Assembly (NCBI RefSeq): GCF_002845745.1
Contig: NZ_PIUM01000007.1
Span: forward strand, 63,309 to 127,308
DNA length: 64,000 nucleotides
Source: Telmatospirillum siberiense
Lineage (GTDB): Bacteria > Pseudomonadota > Alphaproteobacteria > Rhodospirillales > Magnetospirillaceae
Direction: 5' to 3'
The translations under genes and the position numbers were made by a program. The notes below the pieces were generated by a model, which was not told where the DNA came from, searched no databases, and saw nothing but the letters and a program-made list of their open reading frames with translations. Below are positions 12,967-31,629 of the stretch, piece by piece (position 1 is the stretch's first letter; each line of letters starts with the position of its first letter).

Positions 12967-12998
12967 AAGCGTGGCACCGGCAAGGATGCCCATATGCG

Positions 12999-13207
12999 CT
13001 AGGGCGTGTCGTCATTTACCGCTCTTCCGGTATTTTGGTTTGGCGATTCAATCAAAAGACGTCATGCCCGGCCTTGAGCCGGGCATCCACGCCCCCGAAC
13101 AAGTCTCCGCCGTTCGCTCCCACCACGTGGATGGCCGTGTCGAGCACGGCCATGACGGTTTTTGGGGCCATCAGCACGATATCCCGGCAACTGAGGACAC
13201 GCCCTAG
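12999..13207. mobile_element. Miniature inverted-repeat element with paired palindromes, copy A
   Basis: A 209-base non-coding element from CTAG (12999-13002) to CTAG (13204-13207). The ends are inverted repeats: CTAGGGCGTGTCGTCA on the left and, read from the right, CTAGGGCGTGTCCTCA, with similarity continuing for about 22 bases. Inside are two palindromes in opposite orientation: 13060-13091 (stem ATGCCCGGC/GCCGGGCAT, flanks CGTC and CCACG) and 13126-13157 (stem ATGGCCGTG/CACGGCCAT, flanks CGTGG and GACG). It carries no gene. A close relative lies at 29417-29618. CTAG is probably the duplicated target. Confidence 0.8.
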
Positions 13208-13230
13208 GGCGTGTCCTCAGTTGGGACTGC

Positions 13231-13342
13231 CGTCATTCCCGCGAAGGCGGGAATCCAGGCTCAGAGCCGCGTCCGCGGCGGGATGACTCTGTTTCCGTGC
13301 TTACGCACGTAAGAGTCTGGATTCCCGCCTGTGCGGGAATGA
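13231..13342. repeat. Inverted pair of palindromic repeats inside element B
   Basis: The left unit at 13231-13258 has stem ATTCCCGC/GCGGGAAT with loop GAAG and flanks CGTC and CCAG. The right unit at 13317-13342 has the same stem with loop CTGT and flank CTGG, and is cut by the intron after GA. The two units face each other across 58 bases. The flanks GTC and CCA are the same as in copies A and C although the stem bases differ. Confidence 0.75.
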
Positions 13343-15177
13343 GTGCGTCCGTGAGGACGCTTTGTCTGCACGGTGTAAGTCCGTGTCGGAGTCGGTCGCG
13401 GCTTCGTAATCGAAAGTAACTGCGTCGCCGCGAGGCGGGGTGGGGAGCAACTGGAGGTGAATCGGCAGTCCGTAGGATAACGAACCTGTTTCGGCGTGAT
13501 GCTGTGGCGAGCCTGCTCATTCATGGCGAAGCCTGGAAAGAATTGTTGGCGCTGATGCGACTGATAAAGCGACCAGCGGACAGATTGCGTGGTTGAGGTC
13601 GGAATGCCGGGAAGGCAAAGCGGAGTAAGCGGAGAGACCTGTCGGTCTGGGTGAGACCGGCAGGAGTCGGAACCCTCATAGTACTGGTGCCGCATCTGCG
13701 GTGAGAGGGGCGGGTAGCAAAGCCGCCCGTAGGGAAGGGGGGCAGGAAGTTGGATGCGAGAAGCCCGGAATGCAGCAAGACGTAGACTCGGAAGTGCCCG
13801 CGAGGGCTAAACAAGAGACAGAACCCCGCGACCCGAAATGGTGGTGGGCGGAAGCTTCGATCTGGACGGATCGCATGGTGTCGGCGCTGGTCAACGGCGT
13901 CAACGGAGGCAAATGGTTCAGCCTGATAGACAAGGTCATCCGGCCGACAACCTTGGATGCCGCGTGGCGGAAAGTTGCGCGGAACAAGGGTGCGGCTGGC
14001 GTGGATGGCCAAGGCATCGAACGATTCGCGGACCAAGCGGATCGATATCTGCTGGAACTTCACATCGCTTTGAAGGACGGTAGCTATCGGCCGAGCCCGG
14101 TCAAACGGGTGGAAATCCCCAAGGCTGACGGGCACACCCGTCCGCTCGGGATCCCAACGGTCAAGGATCGGATCGTACAGACGGCTCTCAAAATGGTCAT
14201 GGAGCCTATCTTTGAAGTGAACTTCCGCTCCGGCAGCTACGGCTTCCGTCCGGGACGAAGCTGCAAGGATGCGTTGCGGAAAGTCGACCAACTTTTGAGG
14301 GAAGGCTTCCACTACGTGGTGGACGCGGACCTCAAGAGCTACTTCGACACCATTCCGCACGAACAACTCATGGCCCAGGTGGAGATCCTGATCAGCGACG
14401 GGGTCGTCCTGGCGTTGCTCAAGAGCTTTCTTCAACAGGACATCATGAAGGGCATGACGAGTTGGACGCCGACGACGGGAACCCCGCAAGGGGCCGTGAT
14501 CTCGCCGCTGCTCTCCAACATCTACCTGCACCCGCTGGACCTCCTGATGGAGCAAAGCGGTCGCAAGATGGTGCGATATGCCGACGACTTCGTGATCCTC
14601 TGTCGGACGCAAGACGAGGCCATGGCCGCCCTTCGCCAAGTCGAGGCGTGGGTCACGGCTAACGGCCTGACGCTCCACCCGGACAAGACTCGGGTCGGCG
14701 ATAGCCGGCAACCGGGACAAGGATTTGACTTCCTTGGCTATCGGTTCGAAGCGGGTCAGCGACTTGTGCGCAAGAAGAGCCTGAAGGCGATCAAGGACAA
14801 ATTGAGGAGCCGGACGATCCGTAGCAGGGGTGACAGCCTGGAACGGATCATTGCCGACCTCAATCCGATGCTGAGAGGGTGGTTCGGCTACTTTAAACAC
14901 GCCACACCCGGAGTATTCGGCTTCATCGACGGCTTCGTCCGGCGACGGCTGCGCGCGATCCTGCGAAAGCACGATAAGCGGCCCGGCATCGGACGCTGCA
15001 AAGCCGACCATCAGCGCTGGCCCAACGCCTTCTTCGCGGGGAAAGGTCTCTTCACCCTCAATACAGCCTTTGCTCAAGCGAGACACTCCCGATGAGGAAA
15101 CCAACGACTGGAGAGCCGTGTGCGGGAGAACCGCACGCACGGTTCGGAGGGAGGGGAGGAAACTTCCCTACCCCTAC
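13343..15177 (+). mobile_element. Group II intron (bacterial class C-like), ribozyme plus maturase gene
   Basis: The 5' end is GTGCG (13343-13347), matching the GUGYG consensus. Domain V is at 15113-15145: an 8-bp lower stem opened by GAGCCGTG, with the catalytic AGC triad at 15114-15116, a CG bulge, and a 5-bp upper stem TGCGG/CCGCA with a GNRA-like loop. Domain VI follows, with a candidate branch-point A at 15170, 8 bases from the 3' end at 15177 (CCCCTAC). Joining the flanking bases gives ...GGGAATGA+CG..., which restores the palindromic repeat exactly, fixing both boundaries. Insertion just after a hairpin and a maturase without an endonuclease domain are traits of class C introns. The intron looks complete and possibly active. 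Confidence 0.88.
13701..15095 (+). CDS. ltrA: Group II intron reverse transcriptase/maturase
   Basis: A 464-residue intron-encoded protein that helps the RNA fold and splice and copies it into DNA. Reverse transcriptase blocks are present: GAAGVDGQGIERF, GIPTVKDRIVQTAL, the palm motif GTPQGAVISPLLSN, and the catalytic YADD at residues 293-296, followed by the thumb and the maturase X region (FLGYRFE, RGWFGYFKH). No HNH endonuclease domain follows, as in class C proteins. GTG at 13701 gives the longest frame, but an ATG near 13770 is an equally good start. The gene sits in domain IV, between the ribozyme 5' part and domain V. No frameshift is visible and YADD is intact, so the protein should be active. 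Confidence 0.93.
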   Translation: MRGAGSKAARREGGQEVGCEKPGMQQDVDSEVPARAKQETEPRDPKWWWAEASIWTDRMVSALVNGVNGGKWFSLIDKVIRPTTLDAAWRKVARNKGAAGVDGQGIERFADQADRYLLELHIALKDGSYRPSPVKRVEIPKADGHTRPLGIPTVKDRIVQTALKMVMEPIFEVNFRSGSYGFRPGRSCKDALRKVDQLLREGFHYVVDADLKSYFDTIPHEQLMAQVEILISDGVVLALLKSFLQQDIMKGMTSWTPTTGTPQGAVISPLLSNIYLHPLDLLMEQSGRKMVRYADDFVILCRTQDEAMAALRQVEAWVTANGLTLHPDKTRVGDSRQPGQGFDFLGYRFEAGQRLVRKKSLKAIKDKLRSRTIRSRGDSLERIIADLNPMLRGWFGYFKHATPGVFGFIDGFVRRRLRAILRKHDKRPGIGRCKADHQRWPNAFFAGKGLFTLNTAFAQARHSR

Positions 15178-15237
15178 CGTTGTTTTTACAAGAAAATTTC
15201 TCATGCAAGACGCAATTGAGGACACGCCCTAGCTTAA

Positions 15238-15272: not shown

Positions 15273-15374
15273 ATGCCAGCGCTTATGGGCAAGGATGCCG
15301 GTGCCACCGGGGGATTGTCCGTTGCTGGCTCGTGAACGACGCGCTTTTCCGCTCTCATCAAAGAGACCCAAAGG

Positions 15375-27926: not shown

Positions 27927-29420
27927 TTGGCGCGCAATAGAATGCGAATGCTATCCATTTTGGCATTGGGGGTGGGAGCCGCGACATCTCCCATCCCGGC
28001 ACATGCTGATGAAATCGGTGACTTGAAGGCTCTGGTCAACGAGTTGAAAAGTCAGGTCCTGGAGCAGAGAGCCCAAGTCAAGGACCTGAAGGCGCAGATC
28101 AACAACCTGAATGCCCAGGTGACGGATCAGAAGCAGCAGGTCAACGCCCAGAGCGCCCAGGTGCAAAGCCAGAGCAGCGCCCTGCAAAAAGTCGAAGCCC
28201 AGCAGCAGGTTCTCGAACAGAAACAGGTCACCCCCGCACCGGTTCCGACGCTTGCCGCCAATACCGGTAAACCCGGCTATTTAGCCATTCCCGGCACGAA
28301 TACGTCGGTGAAGATCGGCGGTTACGTGAAGCTCGATGTCACCGACGACGTCAGCAGCAACATTTCCGGGTCCGGCGCTAGCGGCAATCCGGCTTCTTAC
28401 AACAGAAGCAATTTCGACCCCACGGCAATCCCGCTCGACAAGTCGGCGGCGTCCCATCGTAACGGTCAGGTGAATTTCAGTGCACAGGAAAGCCGGCTCA
28501 ATCTGACGACATTGACCAACACGGATCGTTTGGGCGAAGTGAAGAGCGTCATCGAAGGCGATTTCTATAACACCAGCAGCAATGGCAATTTCTTCCGCTT
28601 GCGTCACGCCTATGTGAGCGCCGCCGGTTTCACCGCCGGCCAGACCTGGTCGACCTTCAGCGACCTCGATACCGGTGGTCCGGAAACCCTCGATTTCGGT
28701 GGTCCGGTCGGTTGGGCGGCGACTCGTCAGGCGCAGTTGCGCTATACTGCGGCGCTTCCCACCGGCAGCCTCGATGTGGCCGTCGAAAGACCCTCTGCCG
28801 ACCTAAAGACGGCGACCGGCGTGACCGACAATCATATCGACAGAATCCCCGACGTCGTCGTCCGCTATAGCGTCGATCCGTCCTGGGGACACGTCGCTGT
28901 CGCCGGTCTGGGCCGTTATCTGACCAACGACGCGGGAACGACCGTAGACCAGCAGCACGCCAACAAGCTGGTCTACGGCGTGCTGGCCGGCGTCGGCATC
29001 AAGACCATCGGCAAGGATAAGCTGGTGTTGCAGACCGTCGATGGCAATGGTATCGGCCGCTATCTTGAGCAAGGAGAAGGAGTCTCTGCCGTCCTTCTCA
29101 ATGGCGCCATCAAGCCGATCGATATCTGGGGCGGTGTCGTCGGTTACACGCATTTTTGGACCGATGCTCTACGCAGCAGCGCTGCTTATGGTTACGATCA
29201 TTTCAGTACGCCGAGCGGCGACACCCAGAAACCGATCAAGAGCTTGAGTTCGGTACATGTCAACTTGATCTGGAGCCCAATCTCCAGCACGGACGTCGGT
29301 ATCGAATACATTTACGGTCATATCGAAACGTCATCGCCACAATCGGACACAGCCACGGGGACGACGGCTTCGAAGGGGTCTGCCAGTCGCGTCGAGGGAA
29401 GTGTGAAGTACTCCTTCTAG
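27927..29420 (+). CDS. DcaP-like outer-membrane porin with N-terminal coiled coil
   Basis: A 497-residue outer-membrane protein. The start is TTG at 27927, chosen because AGGAGG lies 5 bases upstream and a signal peptide follows (MARNRMRMLSILALGVGAA, cleaved near AHA-DE). Residues about 31-98 form a heptad-rich coiled coil (many Gln, Val, Leu), then a beta-barrel begins with KIGGYVKLDVTDDV and ends SVKYSF, the terminal Phe needed for barrel assembly. The architecture matches DcaP-type trimeric channels for dicarboxylates and small acids. Its TAG stop lies in CTAG 29417-29420, the left target site of the miniature element, so insertion did not truncate the protein. Confidence 0.87.
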   Translation: MARNRMRMLSILALGVGAATSPIPAHADEIGDLKALVNELKSQVLEQRAQVKDLKAQINNLNAQVTDQKQQVNAQSAQVQSQSSALQKVEAQQQVLEQKQVTPAPVPTLAANTGKPGYLAIPGTNTSVKIGGYVKLDVTDDVSSNISGSGASGNPASYNRSNFDPTAIPLDKSAASHRNGQVNFSAQESRLNLTTLTNTDRLGEVKSVIEGDFYNTSSNGNFFRLRHAYVSAAGFTAGQTWSTFSDLDTGGPETLDFGGPVGWAATRQAQLRYTAALPTGSLDVAVERPSADLKTATGVTDNHIDRIPDVVVRYSVDPSWGHVAVAGLGRYLTNDAGTTVDQQHANKLVYGVLAGVGIKTIGKDKLVLQTVDGNGIGRYLEQGEGVSAVLLNGAIKPIDIWGGVVGYTHFWTDALRSSAAYGYDHFSTPSGDTQKPIKSLSSVHVNLIWSPISSTDVGIEYIYGHIETSSPQSDTATGTTASKGSASRVEGSVKYSF

Positions 29421-29618
29421 GGCCTGTCGTCAGTTACCGCTCTCGCGGCTTTTTCAACCAAAAGACGTCATGCCCGGCCCTGAGCCGGGCATCCACGCCC
29501 CGAACAAGTCTCCGTCGTTCGTTCCCATCACGTGGATGGTCGTGTGCTCGACACGGCCATGACGGTTTTTGGGGCCATCAGCACGATATCAGTCGCTAAC
29601 CGACGACACGGACCCTAG
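29417..29618. mobile_element. Miniature inverted-repeat element with paired palindromes, copy C
   Basis: This 202-base element runs from CTAG (29417-29420) to CTAG (29615-29618). It aligns along its length with copy A at 12999. The left end reads CTAGGGCCTGTCGTCAGTTA and the right end, inversely, CTAGGGTCCGTGTCGTC. The palindromes are 29466-29497 (stem ATGCCCGGC/GCCGGGCAT) and 29531-29564 (stem ATGGTCGTGT/ACACGGCCAT with one G-T pair). Changes against copy A leave the stems able to pair. It contains no gene. An IS701-family element abuts the right CTAG. Confidence 0.8.
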
Positions 29619-30516
29619 TCTTACTGCGTCATAAAATTGGTTGATTCGTCGGCTTGATTGGCCTGGCACAGCAGGGACATCGTGCCAGTCGTCTGGCCAG
29701 AGCGACGGCGATCCGTCGTCGCATCGTGGTGATTGAGTTGGGGATGTGCCGCTGCGGCCGGATCGGCGGCGGCTCTGGGTCGATAACCTTCGGGAACGGC
29801 AGATTTCGTGAATTTCGCGGCGCAACGTGGTCCTGAGGGGGGAATAGTCTCCCTTTCGGAGATCAGGAAGCCGTAGGCGGCGATGCAGAGTGTGGCGTGA
29901 TGGTGAAACCCTCGCCAACCTCGCCCTTCATAGTGCCCAGCCCGACCTCTTGCTTGAGATCCTGGTAATCGCGCTCGATGCGCCAACGCAGCTTGGTCAG
30001 GTCGATCAGGCGGTCGAAAGCGATGTTTTCGGGAAGGGTGGAAAGCCAATATTTGATTGGTTCAGCCTCATCAGCGGGCCACTCGATGATCAACCACTCT
30101 TGCGGACGCGGCGCGGCCAGCAAATTGTCGCGATGGGCGGTAGCACCAGATCCCGCACCCTGGACAACATCGCCGCGTCCGACCACGGCGCGTTACCGAT
30201 AGAATGAAGCAGCGACTGGTGTTGTGCAGGAACGCGCGCTGGCGCCGTTACCGCCGCCATCGGCTCGACGCTTTTGCGCTCGCCCGGCATCAAAAGGCCA
30301 ACGCAGTAATCCCTCAGTGGTTCCGCTCGGTCGCTGTGGCCGACCACCGCCACAAGCGCATCGACATAGGATTCAAAACGCGATCCACTGTCCAGACTCG
30401 CAACGAGATCCATATCAGCCTTCTCCTGCTGAAGCATGAATCTTCCCCTTATACCTCATTTTGCGATACAAGAACCATACATATACAAAATGTAGATATT
30501 TTGTGACTCAGTAAGA
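29619..30516 (-). mobile_element. Decayed IS701-family insertion sequence
   Basis: This 898-base element lies between CTAG 29615-29618 and CTAG 30517-30520, the 4-base target typical of the IS701 family. The terminal inverted repeats are TCTTACTGCGTCATAAA (left) and TCTTACTGAGTCACAAA (right end read inversely), with two mismatches in 17. It holds only fragments of a transposase on the minus strand, so it cannot move by itself. It has a shorter body than full IS701 elements (about 1.4 kb). Confidence 0.82.
29621..30437 (-). pseudogene. IS701-family DDE transposase, frameshifted and internally deleted
   Basis: The N-terminal part (from 30437: LDSGSRFESYVDALVAVVGH, LMPGERKSVEPMAA, HQSLLHSIGNAPWSD) is in one frame, the middle (30124-29935: PQEWLIIEWP, YWLSTLPENI, LRWRIERDYQDLKQEVGLG) in a second, and the end (from about 29935: HYEGRGWRGFHHHATLCIAAYGFL, SERETIPP) in a third. 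The summed length is about 270 codons against about 430 for intact relatives; the section after VRDLVLPP, which carries catalytic aspartates, is missing. One deletion and at least two frameshifts mark it as dead. Confidence 0.85.
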
Positions 30517-31629
30517 CTAGTGGCAGATGCCATATCCGGCGCCCACCGCTATTCCGGTCGGATGTCCATCCAATGCGATCACCGAGGACAGGCGACGGTT
30601 ACGCGCATCGATCACCGCGATGGCGCTTTTGTCTTTCAGGGGAAGGTATAACTTCGTGCCGTCGGCGGTGACGGTTCCCGGGCCGGGGACGGCCGGCAGG
30701 GAAATATCTCCGCCTTTCGACATGCGCCACAGATCGTAGACGAGCAGGGTGCGCTTGTCGGCGCTGGGGACGAAGGCCACCGAATCGAACCAGCCGGTAT
30801 AGGTTGTCCCCAAGCCGGATGCGGCCGCCAATTCGGCGCCGGGGGTCAAATCATCGCCGTGAACGATGGAAAAACTGCGTTTCGATTCGTTGGTAAGCAG
30901 AAGGTAGGCCCCGCTTCCCGATGGGGTGGCGGTGACGGCGCCGGGACCCGCCTGGATGGAAGGCAGGGGTTTCCCTGCGCGCAAATCGATCACCCCGATC
31001 AGTCCCGATTTTTCGCTGCGGGCGAAGATCAGGCGGCCGTTGGCGGAGCGGGTGATGCTGCTGATCCGCTGGGCCGCATCCGGTTCAGGGGTGATCTTCG
31101 CGGTCATCTTTCCCTGCGCGATGTCGATGACGCCGAGACCGTCCAGGTCATTCGAGGCAATGAACAAGGCCGATCCGTCGCCGGCGAAAAGCAGATCCGA
31201 AAGTACGGGCAGGCCCGACAGATTGGCCAAAGCCCGTCCGCTGGGCAGGCTGAAGACCGCCACATGCCCGCCCGTCAGATCGGATACGGCCAGCTTCTGC
31301 CCATCCGGGCTGGTCAGCAGGCGGCGCGCCGGAAAGGACAGCGAAATGTCGGAGGTTCGCCCTGCCGCCAGATCGGCGAGAACGACGCGGTTGGATCGGC
31401 CATCCGTCGCCGCCAGCACCGGCGATGCCTGGGATATTTCGATCTGGCTGGGTTTCAGCCCCAGTTCGACCCCTCCGACGACTTGGTCTTTGTCGATGTC
31501 GATCACCGTGAGCTTACTGGTATCGCTCAGTGTTGCAAAGGCCAGGTGGCTGATATCAGGGAAAGTTTCGGCTTGCGCCACGGTTGCATGGGCGAGCAGC
31601 AGGACGCAAGCGAGGTATGTCGGGCGCAT
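30517..31629 (-). CDS. YncE-like periplasmic beta-propeller protein
   Basis: A 370-residue secreted protein with a Sec signal (MRPTYLACVLLLAHATVAQA-ET) and about seven repeats of the YVTN/PQQ-like propeller type, each with a core like KLTVIDIDKDQVVGGVELG, LGVIDIAQGKMTAKI or IAVIDARNRRLSSVIAL. YncE-like proteins bind DNA, cofactors or quinoprotein partners; no specific role can be given here. It ends GAGYGICH, and its TAG stop is the rightmost CTAG (30517-30520) of the IS701 element. It reads toward the porin gene, with the two mobile elements between. The start ATG at 31629 has no good ribosome-binding site. Confidence 0.78.
   Translation of the reverse strand: MRPTYLACVLLLAHATVAQAETFPDISHLAFATLSDTSKLTVIDIDKDQVVGGVELGLKPSQIEISQASPVLAATDGRSNRVVLADLAAGRTSDISLSFPARRLLTSPDGQKLAVSDLTGGHVAVFSLPSGRALANLSGLPVLSDLLFAGDGSALFIASNDLDGLGVIDIAQGKMTAKITPEPDAAQRISSITRSANGRLIFARSEKSGLIGVIDLRAGKPLPSIQAGPGAVTATPSGSGAYLLLTNESKRSFSIVHGDDLTPGAELAAASGLGTTYTGWFDSVAFVPSADKRTLLVYDLWRMSKGGDISLPAVPGPGTVTADGTKLYLPLKDKSAIAVIDARNRRLSSVIALDGHPTGIAVGAGYGICH

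Follow-up and report, generated by a model that had tools for sequence, protein, structure and literature searches.

A MITE family with IS5-type ends carries CGTC REP dimers in Telmatospirillum siberiense

Results

Elements A, B and C combine IS5-type ends with paired REP palindromes

Three short elements (A, B and C) in a 64-kb window of the Telmatospirillum siberiense genome, that is, the whole stretch of 64,000 nucleotides analyzed here, are most probably miniature inverted-repeat transposable elements (MITEs) with the ends of an IS5-family insertion sequence (IS), carrying older dimers of CGTC-type REP palindromes and moved in trans by the IS transposase. The element is multicopy, shares its ends with an IS5-family IS, faces one uninterrupted site in a congener, and has counterparts of its dimer elsewhere that lack the surrounding shell. 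From these observations we infer transposition in trans by such an IS and capture of the dimer by its ends.

A sequence-only reading of this DNA had described A and C as CTAG-bounded elements with inverted ends and two opposed palindromes, and inspection confirmed their coordinates and layout (Table 1). It had also noted that each stem is matched by its complement, with one G-T pair in C; folding of the five hairpins of A, C and B reproduced the stems it had written, with 0, 0, 2, 0 and 0 shuffles per 200 folding equally well, and the fold of the whole of copy A had a z of -6.4 relative to shuffles.

Table 1. Features of the window and copies of the second MITE family
Feature	Coordinates	Strand	Remarks
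MITE copy A	12999..13207	+	borders CTAG (12999-13002) and CTAG (13204-13207); ~20-bp imperfect terminal inverted repeats GGGCGTGTCGTCATTTACCG / CGGCAACTGAGGACACGCCC
CGTC-type REP 1 of A	13061..13089	+	stem ATGCCCGGC, loop CTTGA
CGTC-type REP 2 of A	13128..13156	-	stem ATGGCCGTG; head-to-head with REP 1
Element B	13204..15232	+	second MITE, same terminal sequence; abuts A at a common CTAG; split by group II intron
CGTC-1-like REP 1 of B	13232..13257	+	stem ATTCCCGC
REP 2 of B	13318..13342	-	CGTC foot cut by intron: ATGA before it, C at 15178
Group II intron	13343..15177	+	5' GTGCG; at foot of REP hairpin; RF02001 13424-13623, RF00029 15111-15177
Intron-encoded reverse transcriptase/maturase	13701..15095	+	RVT_1, GIIM; TIGR04416 390.5 bits (cut-off 300)
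MITE copy C	29417..29618	+	borders CTAG (29417-29420) and CTAG (29615-29618); left border holds TAG stop of ORF 27927-29420
REP 1 of C	29467..29495	+	
REP 2 of C	29533..29563	-	10-bp stem, one G-T pair
Family-2 copies	L016 1652-1880; L020, L022, L030, L093, L098-L100, L105, L107, L112; L236		

Two features of the surroundings deserve mention in their own right. A 906-bp IS701-like remnant (29615-30520; DDE_5 match, 23-bp inverted ends CTAGTCTTACTGCGTCATAAAAT) adjoins copy C at a common CTAG, and its end also begins contig C44 and seven contigs of G001. Around A and B, 30-nt arms beginning GTGGCACCGGCAAGGATGCC (12971-13000 and 15278-15307, 83% complementary) bracket the A+B block and look like the CACCGGC..GCCGGTG palindromes next to the RAYT-like gene of this genome, which would fit entry of A and B into a hairpin of that kind.

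The family is multicopy in the source genome, and its REP pair is widespread in the order

Searching the source genome (6.2 Mb, 81 contigs) with copy A, with 40 of 102 first-pass candidates scored, returned at least 52 matches, 19 of them 128-214 bp long and spread over 13 contigs. At about 205 bp, short, multicopy and bounded by terminal inverted repeats (TIRs), the element has the properties of a MITE. The remaining matches comprised the ends or the internal pair alone, and many of them belong to a second family described below. The end pattern CTAGGGCSTGTCNTCA had 12 exact sites and 11 with one mismatch; when two mismatches were allowed the total was 46, compared with 29 for the reversed pattern, so that two-mismatch sites by themselves carry little weight. 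A pattern scan of the genome contigs for the long TIR gave 0 sites, and copy A had no match among plasmids and phages. The proposal of a non-autonomous mobile family was borne out by a multicopy element with TA/CTAG-type borders, as was the absence of its mover from the 64-kb window.

Of 61 genomes of the order, the source genome included, 39 matched A when 13 candidates were scored per genome. Among the matches listed for the 38 of 60 other genomes, all fell within query positions 48-169, which is the REP dimer; the REP pair is therefore old and widespread in the order, and the shell was seen, among these 61 genomes, in the source genome only.

Copies are bordered by YTAR sites

Borders were tabulated for 18 MITE copies, several of them set by hand and that of L011 shifted by one base. 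Both borders were readable in 12, of which 10 had TA on both sides and six had identical 4-mers, so the CTAG borders described earlier hold as TA-containing YTAR sites but not strictly as CTAG. Unequal pairs, among them TTAG/CTAG in L006 and CTAG/CTAA in L009, point to duplication of the TA, with the outer letters coming from target and element, although mutation could also account for them; any duplication would measure 2 or 4 bp.

Six insertion sites were queried in relatives, and two were decided: L002 by alignment and L004 by flank spacing. At L002, where the insertion directly follows an open frame, G002 aligns through the junction without the insert over 303 bases (about 76% identity, two one-base gaps), which provides an uninterrupted site in a relative; the congener reads CTGA, not a YTAR sequence, where the source genome has CTAG, so the duplication is not directly readable from G002. 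The distance between the L004 flanks is 124 bases in G001 and 184 in G004 (156 and 223 in the joined query), too short for the insert to be present.

In four of 13 copies (L002, L008, L009 and L020), and also in C, the TAG or TAA of the border ends a frame of more than 100 codons; at L017, a frame ends with TGA at a doubtful border. We rejected the idea that insertion at stop codons is special, since across the window the same holds for 26 of 100 YTAR sites and 9 of 17 CTAG sites.

The ends match those of an IS5-family insertion sequence

The MITE terminal sequence also occurs at the ends of contigs C4 and C6, where coding sequence for the C-terminus of an IS5-type transposase follows it, terminating in LKQFRAIATRFDKTARNFLAAVHLAASVVWLN; the ends of contigs C32 and C47 bear the opposite end of the IS. 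Contigs stopping inside such ends would fit a multicopy IS collapsed in the draft assembly. A complete copy of the IS with MITE-type ends was not found in this assembly, in which the transposase-side end lies at two contig ends only, so that an active transposase is something we infer. In another genome of the order, locus L142 holds a complete IS of about 850 bp with CTAG at both borders and ends GGGCGTATCGTCAATT and GGGCGTGTCGTCATTT; its two overlapping frames match the two halves of the NF033580 IS5 transposase (137 and 134 bits, cut-off 110). The ends of the MITEs agree with those of the IS, both at the contig ends of the source genome and at L142/L140, for about 20 bp and then diverge. 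We take this IS5-family IS to be IS427-like.

The association of these ends with REPs did not depend on searching with the REPs: when only the ends were used (pairs 80-450 bp apart), nine of 10 first-family pairs enclosed a REP pair. The one exception, at L044 (974-1314), consists of 341 bp between IS5-type ends, one of the type CTAGGGCGTGTGGACA, lacks REPs and adjoins the MITE copy of L005.

Several candidates were rejected. As transposase models for the mover, PF13586 gave 0 matches and PF13546 matched only the IS701-like remnant beside C. The second IS end, which had no match in plasmids, was considered as a different IS until comparison with L142 and L139 showed both ends to belong to one kind of IS. 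Apart from these candidates, a repeat of about 130 bp in the left flank of L009, beside its MITE copy, and at L116 (query 630-765) has dozens of matches in the source genome, G001, G002 and G004.

Palindromes covary across the REP population, not within the MITE family

The palindromes have the features given for CGTC REPs in the part of Di Nocera et al. 2013 (PMC3733652) from which we took our criteria: a CGTC foot, an AT stem base, a stem of 8-9 bp, a loop of 4-5 nt, a CCA tail and head-to-head dimers, with REP 2 of C departing from them in its longer stem. A REP pattern allowing at most one mismatch found 122 sites in the source genome, compared with 0 for the control. In the genome's 29 distinct REP variants, pairing is kept in 96.2% of stem cells. 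Both-sided change affects 43 cells (mean of 14.9 in shuffles), and the covariation score is 0.430, compared with 0.120 for shuffled and 0.000-0.077 for slid alignments. Of the five covariation measures, two cruder ones did not exceed the shuffles: pairs with both-sided change (4 versus 4.0; 462/500) and further pair types (10 versus 9.0; 157/500).

The sequence-only reading had taken co-varying palindromes as a property of the family and compensatory change as a sign that the hairpin itself is what matters. The former stands for the 29 REP variants but fails within the family, and the latter is not supported: the 16 MITE copies have 0 both-sided stem changes and nine single ones (six broken pairs, three wobbles), and what distinguishes A from C is a single stem change, confined to one side, together with changes in the loops. 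Stems diverging without complementary change, which that reading had named as the observation that would count against it, are therefore what the copies contain. The contrast between the left and right palindromes is instead that of two distinct REP types which the dimer already combined, and the same two types are also paired in G014, L064. Stem differences between elements seem to reflect capture or exchange of whole REPs; that whole REPs are exchanged is indicated by two mixed structures, L018, in which by eye the MITE shell surrounds a family-2 core, and L019, which joins half of each.

Within the family, the REPs are nonetheless the least diverged part. In 11 well-aligned copies, 6 of 638 REP cells were changed, compared with 53 of 1147 in the rest of the interior and 34 of 391 in the TIRs, and 5 of 58 sites were variable in the REPs compared with 27 of 106; cells share ancestry, so that Fisher values on this divergence overstate certainty. 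Such conservation is unexpected for a pure passenger unless REP-REP recombination homogenizes the REPs or the search favored intact cores, and the pattern fits either of these as well as constraint. The hairpins may thus still matter, while it is the ends, not the hairpins, that explain transposition.

A group II intron splits element B at the foot of a REP hairpin

In a further correction to the sequence-only reading, element B runs from 13204 to 15232 and is split by a group II intron, whose ends we placed from the sequence and the Rfam matches. Inside the same ends it carries another, CGTC-1-like REP type, and the intron is inserted at the foot of its second hairpin (ATGA^C). The shell of B turned up in no further copy, the eight matches being B, its reverse and six stretches of 24-36 bases at REPs.

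We examined 80 loci encoding related intron proteins; 40 could be aligned at the start of the intron, and in 38 the 5' end could be placed. In 25 of these 38, a hairpin with 6 or more base pairs precedes the intron and ends no more than 8 nt from it, compared with 5 of 190 positions picked at random from these loci; a single genome contributed seven of the 38, so they are not independent cases. The introns thus tend to lie directly 3' of a hairpin, that of the window included, with 13 of 38 lacking one, and the GGAT..ATGA REP signature was present at six related-intron loci. Separately, Desulfosarcina alkanivorans has eight loci with related intron proteins (L152-L158, L164), and of the seven tested, six follow a GC-rich, repeat-like hairpin. 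REPs have been recorded as group II intron sites before: two of nine in P. putida, as tabulated in the available part of Tobes & Pareja 2006 (PMC1525189).

A second MITE family with IS4-type ends also carries and targets REPs

Many of the core-only matches to A come from a second family, whose members measure 227-229 bp, have the ends ACGGCTGTCCGGCAC and contain a REP dimer of their own. With up to two mismatches, these ends were found 36 times in the source genome and 0 times as the reversed control, and eight times in three of 40 other genomes. Inspected by eye, 10 of 11 copies, all from loci fetched for their REPs, have REP halves on at least one flank, and 11-bp duplications across the REP loop are exact in two and have one mismatch in three. 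The ends-only search recovered six elements of this family, all enclosing a REP pair, again with two exact and three one-mismatch 11-bp duplications; five of the six are also among the 11 copies above. One element (L016 1652-1880) sits in REP 2 of a first-family MITE. At L226 (G024), the same 15-bp ends bound an IS4-family element of about 1280 bp lying between REP halves (NF033592, 249.9 bits, cut-off 115).

Of the 122 CGTC REPs, 100 were listed with their surroundings, and 63 of these lie in or beside the two families: 28 in first-family elements (two of them also near a family-2 end) and a further 35 no more than 200 bp from such an end. The other 37 are near neither family, with some (L097, L101, L106, L108) showing family-2-like flanks by eye.

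Alternative explanations

Covarying hairpins across the REP population, dimers free of a shell both in the source genome (L094, L103 and L104, by eye) and in relatives, and REPs that are the most conserved part of the MITE copies could all be accommodated if the REP dimer itself were mobile, as a REPIN moved by a RAYT-type Y1 transposase recognizing the hairpins, with the TIR shell incidental. We regard this as improbable. The MITE copies have borders, ends and subterminal DNA in common, so that the unit copied is the whole MITE; the only Y1_Tnp gene found in the genome (L061 1381-1830), although RAYT-like, reaches 70.6 bits with REP_Tyr_transpos, below the cut-off of 80, and is flanked by CACCGGCACGGAGGCCGGTG palindromes, not by GTCAT..ATCCA; and CGTC repeats do not flank tyrosine transposase genes according to the part of PMC3733652 that treats them. 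The likeness to REPINs seen earlier accordingly holds for the REP pair inside, but the whole is an IS5-type MITE with a CGTC-REP dimer as cargo and not a REP doublet with CTAG ends; likewise, of the two kinds of enzyme suggested for a search by end sequence, an IS5-family IS does share the ends, but the RAYT-like gene has other palindromes beside it.

The low divergence of the REPs and the strong fold of the whole element would also be expected if the palindromes had a function in the MITE, in its movement or as a host-selected terminator or mRNA-stabilizing hairpin, and were kept by selection. This is hardly more probable, if slightly so: L017 has no REP 2, a REP of L016 is split by another element, and recombination among the more than 100 genomic REPs could likewise keep them alike. 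As for movement, IS5-family transposases are DDE enzymes that act on double-stranded ends. Finally, CTAG does draw several elements, as the abutment of A with B and of C with the IS701-like remnant illustrates, and one could imagine that unrelated repeats came together at such sites by chance or through the genome assembly. With 19 long copies on 13 contigs, a REP pattern control of zero and the uninterrupted site in G002, such an assemblage has next to no probability.

Discussion

We therefore return to MITEs with IS5-type ends and REP cargo, for which the following course of events is envisaged. An IS5-family IS, presumably IS427-like, would insert at YTAR, its ends being those of A, B and C, and its transposase is predicted to bind the ends of about 20 bp in trans and to move the MITE. 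The head-to-head CGTC REP pair would be older passenger DNA that fell between two IS-like ends and has since been copied with the MITE, and stem differences would combine capture or exchange of whole REPs with long-term covariation of the REP population. CGTC REPs could thus spread both by riding in unrelated elements and by serving them as landing sites, the elements being IS5-type and IS4-type MITEs and a group II intron.

The elements resemble MITEs of the IS5 family (presumably IS427-like) in their IS-type terminal repeats, YTAR/TA target, multiple copies and the lack of any coding capacity noted, but their interior is a REP heterodimer and not an IS remnant, only the ends of about 20 bp matching an IS. 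With the CGTC REPs of Di Nocera et al. 2013 (PMC3733652), as far as the available text describes them, they share the CGTC foot, AT stem base, CCA tail, head-to-head heterodimers and the lack of a transposase alongside, as well as dimensions (stems of 9 bp and loops of 5 nt in A, 8 bp and 4 nt in B). In that text, associations of CGTC elements with other transposase genes are few and fortuitous, the CGTC-1 dimers of H. neapolitanus all lie within 41-bp palindromes, and the spread of these REPs, which have no dedicated transposase, is left open, with a broad spectrum of transposases suggested as movers; the difference here is that two transposon shells contain or adjoin 63 of the 100 REPs listed. 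REPINs, in the portion of Bertels & Rainey 2011 (PMC3116915) available, likewise consist of an inverted REP pair and a spacer able to fold into a long hairpin, but in our case no cognate RAYT was found in the genome and the copied unit reaches IS-type ends. REP-targeting insertion sequences, such as ISRm22 (IS4), with 10 of 10 copies in REPs by the table and nine copies in the text of the available part of Tobes & Pareja 2006 (PMC1525189), offer a parallel to family 2 and the IS4-family element of L226, which sit in REP loops too; family 2 differs in being a derivative of about 228 bp that carries its own target, a REP dimer. A survey of open-licence literature, mostly at the level of titles and abstract openings, yielded no account of an IS5-type MITE with a REP dimer in its interior, and PMC10969869 held nothing relevant.

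Our results suggest that CGTC REPs spread in the source genome by passive transport inside MITEs. A more general model, which we put forward tentatively and rate at slightly under an even chance, is that CGTC REPs persist as passengers and landing pads: dimers would be trapped between the ends of different DDE transposons, travel in the resulting MITEs and pass from shell to shell by REP-REP recombination, and IS4-type MITEs and group II introns, themselves carrying further REPs or adjoining them, would insert into the hairpins and loops of the dimers, so that REP abundance would be transposon-driven and the 41-bp palindromes of H. neapolitanus would be MITE shells. Covarying hairpins, then, need not be the moving unit. 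With 63 of the 100 listed REPs tied to MITE families that have identifiable transposon relatives, how CGTC REPs spread becomes a directly testable question.
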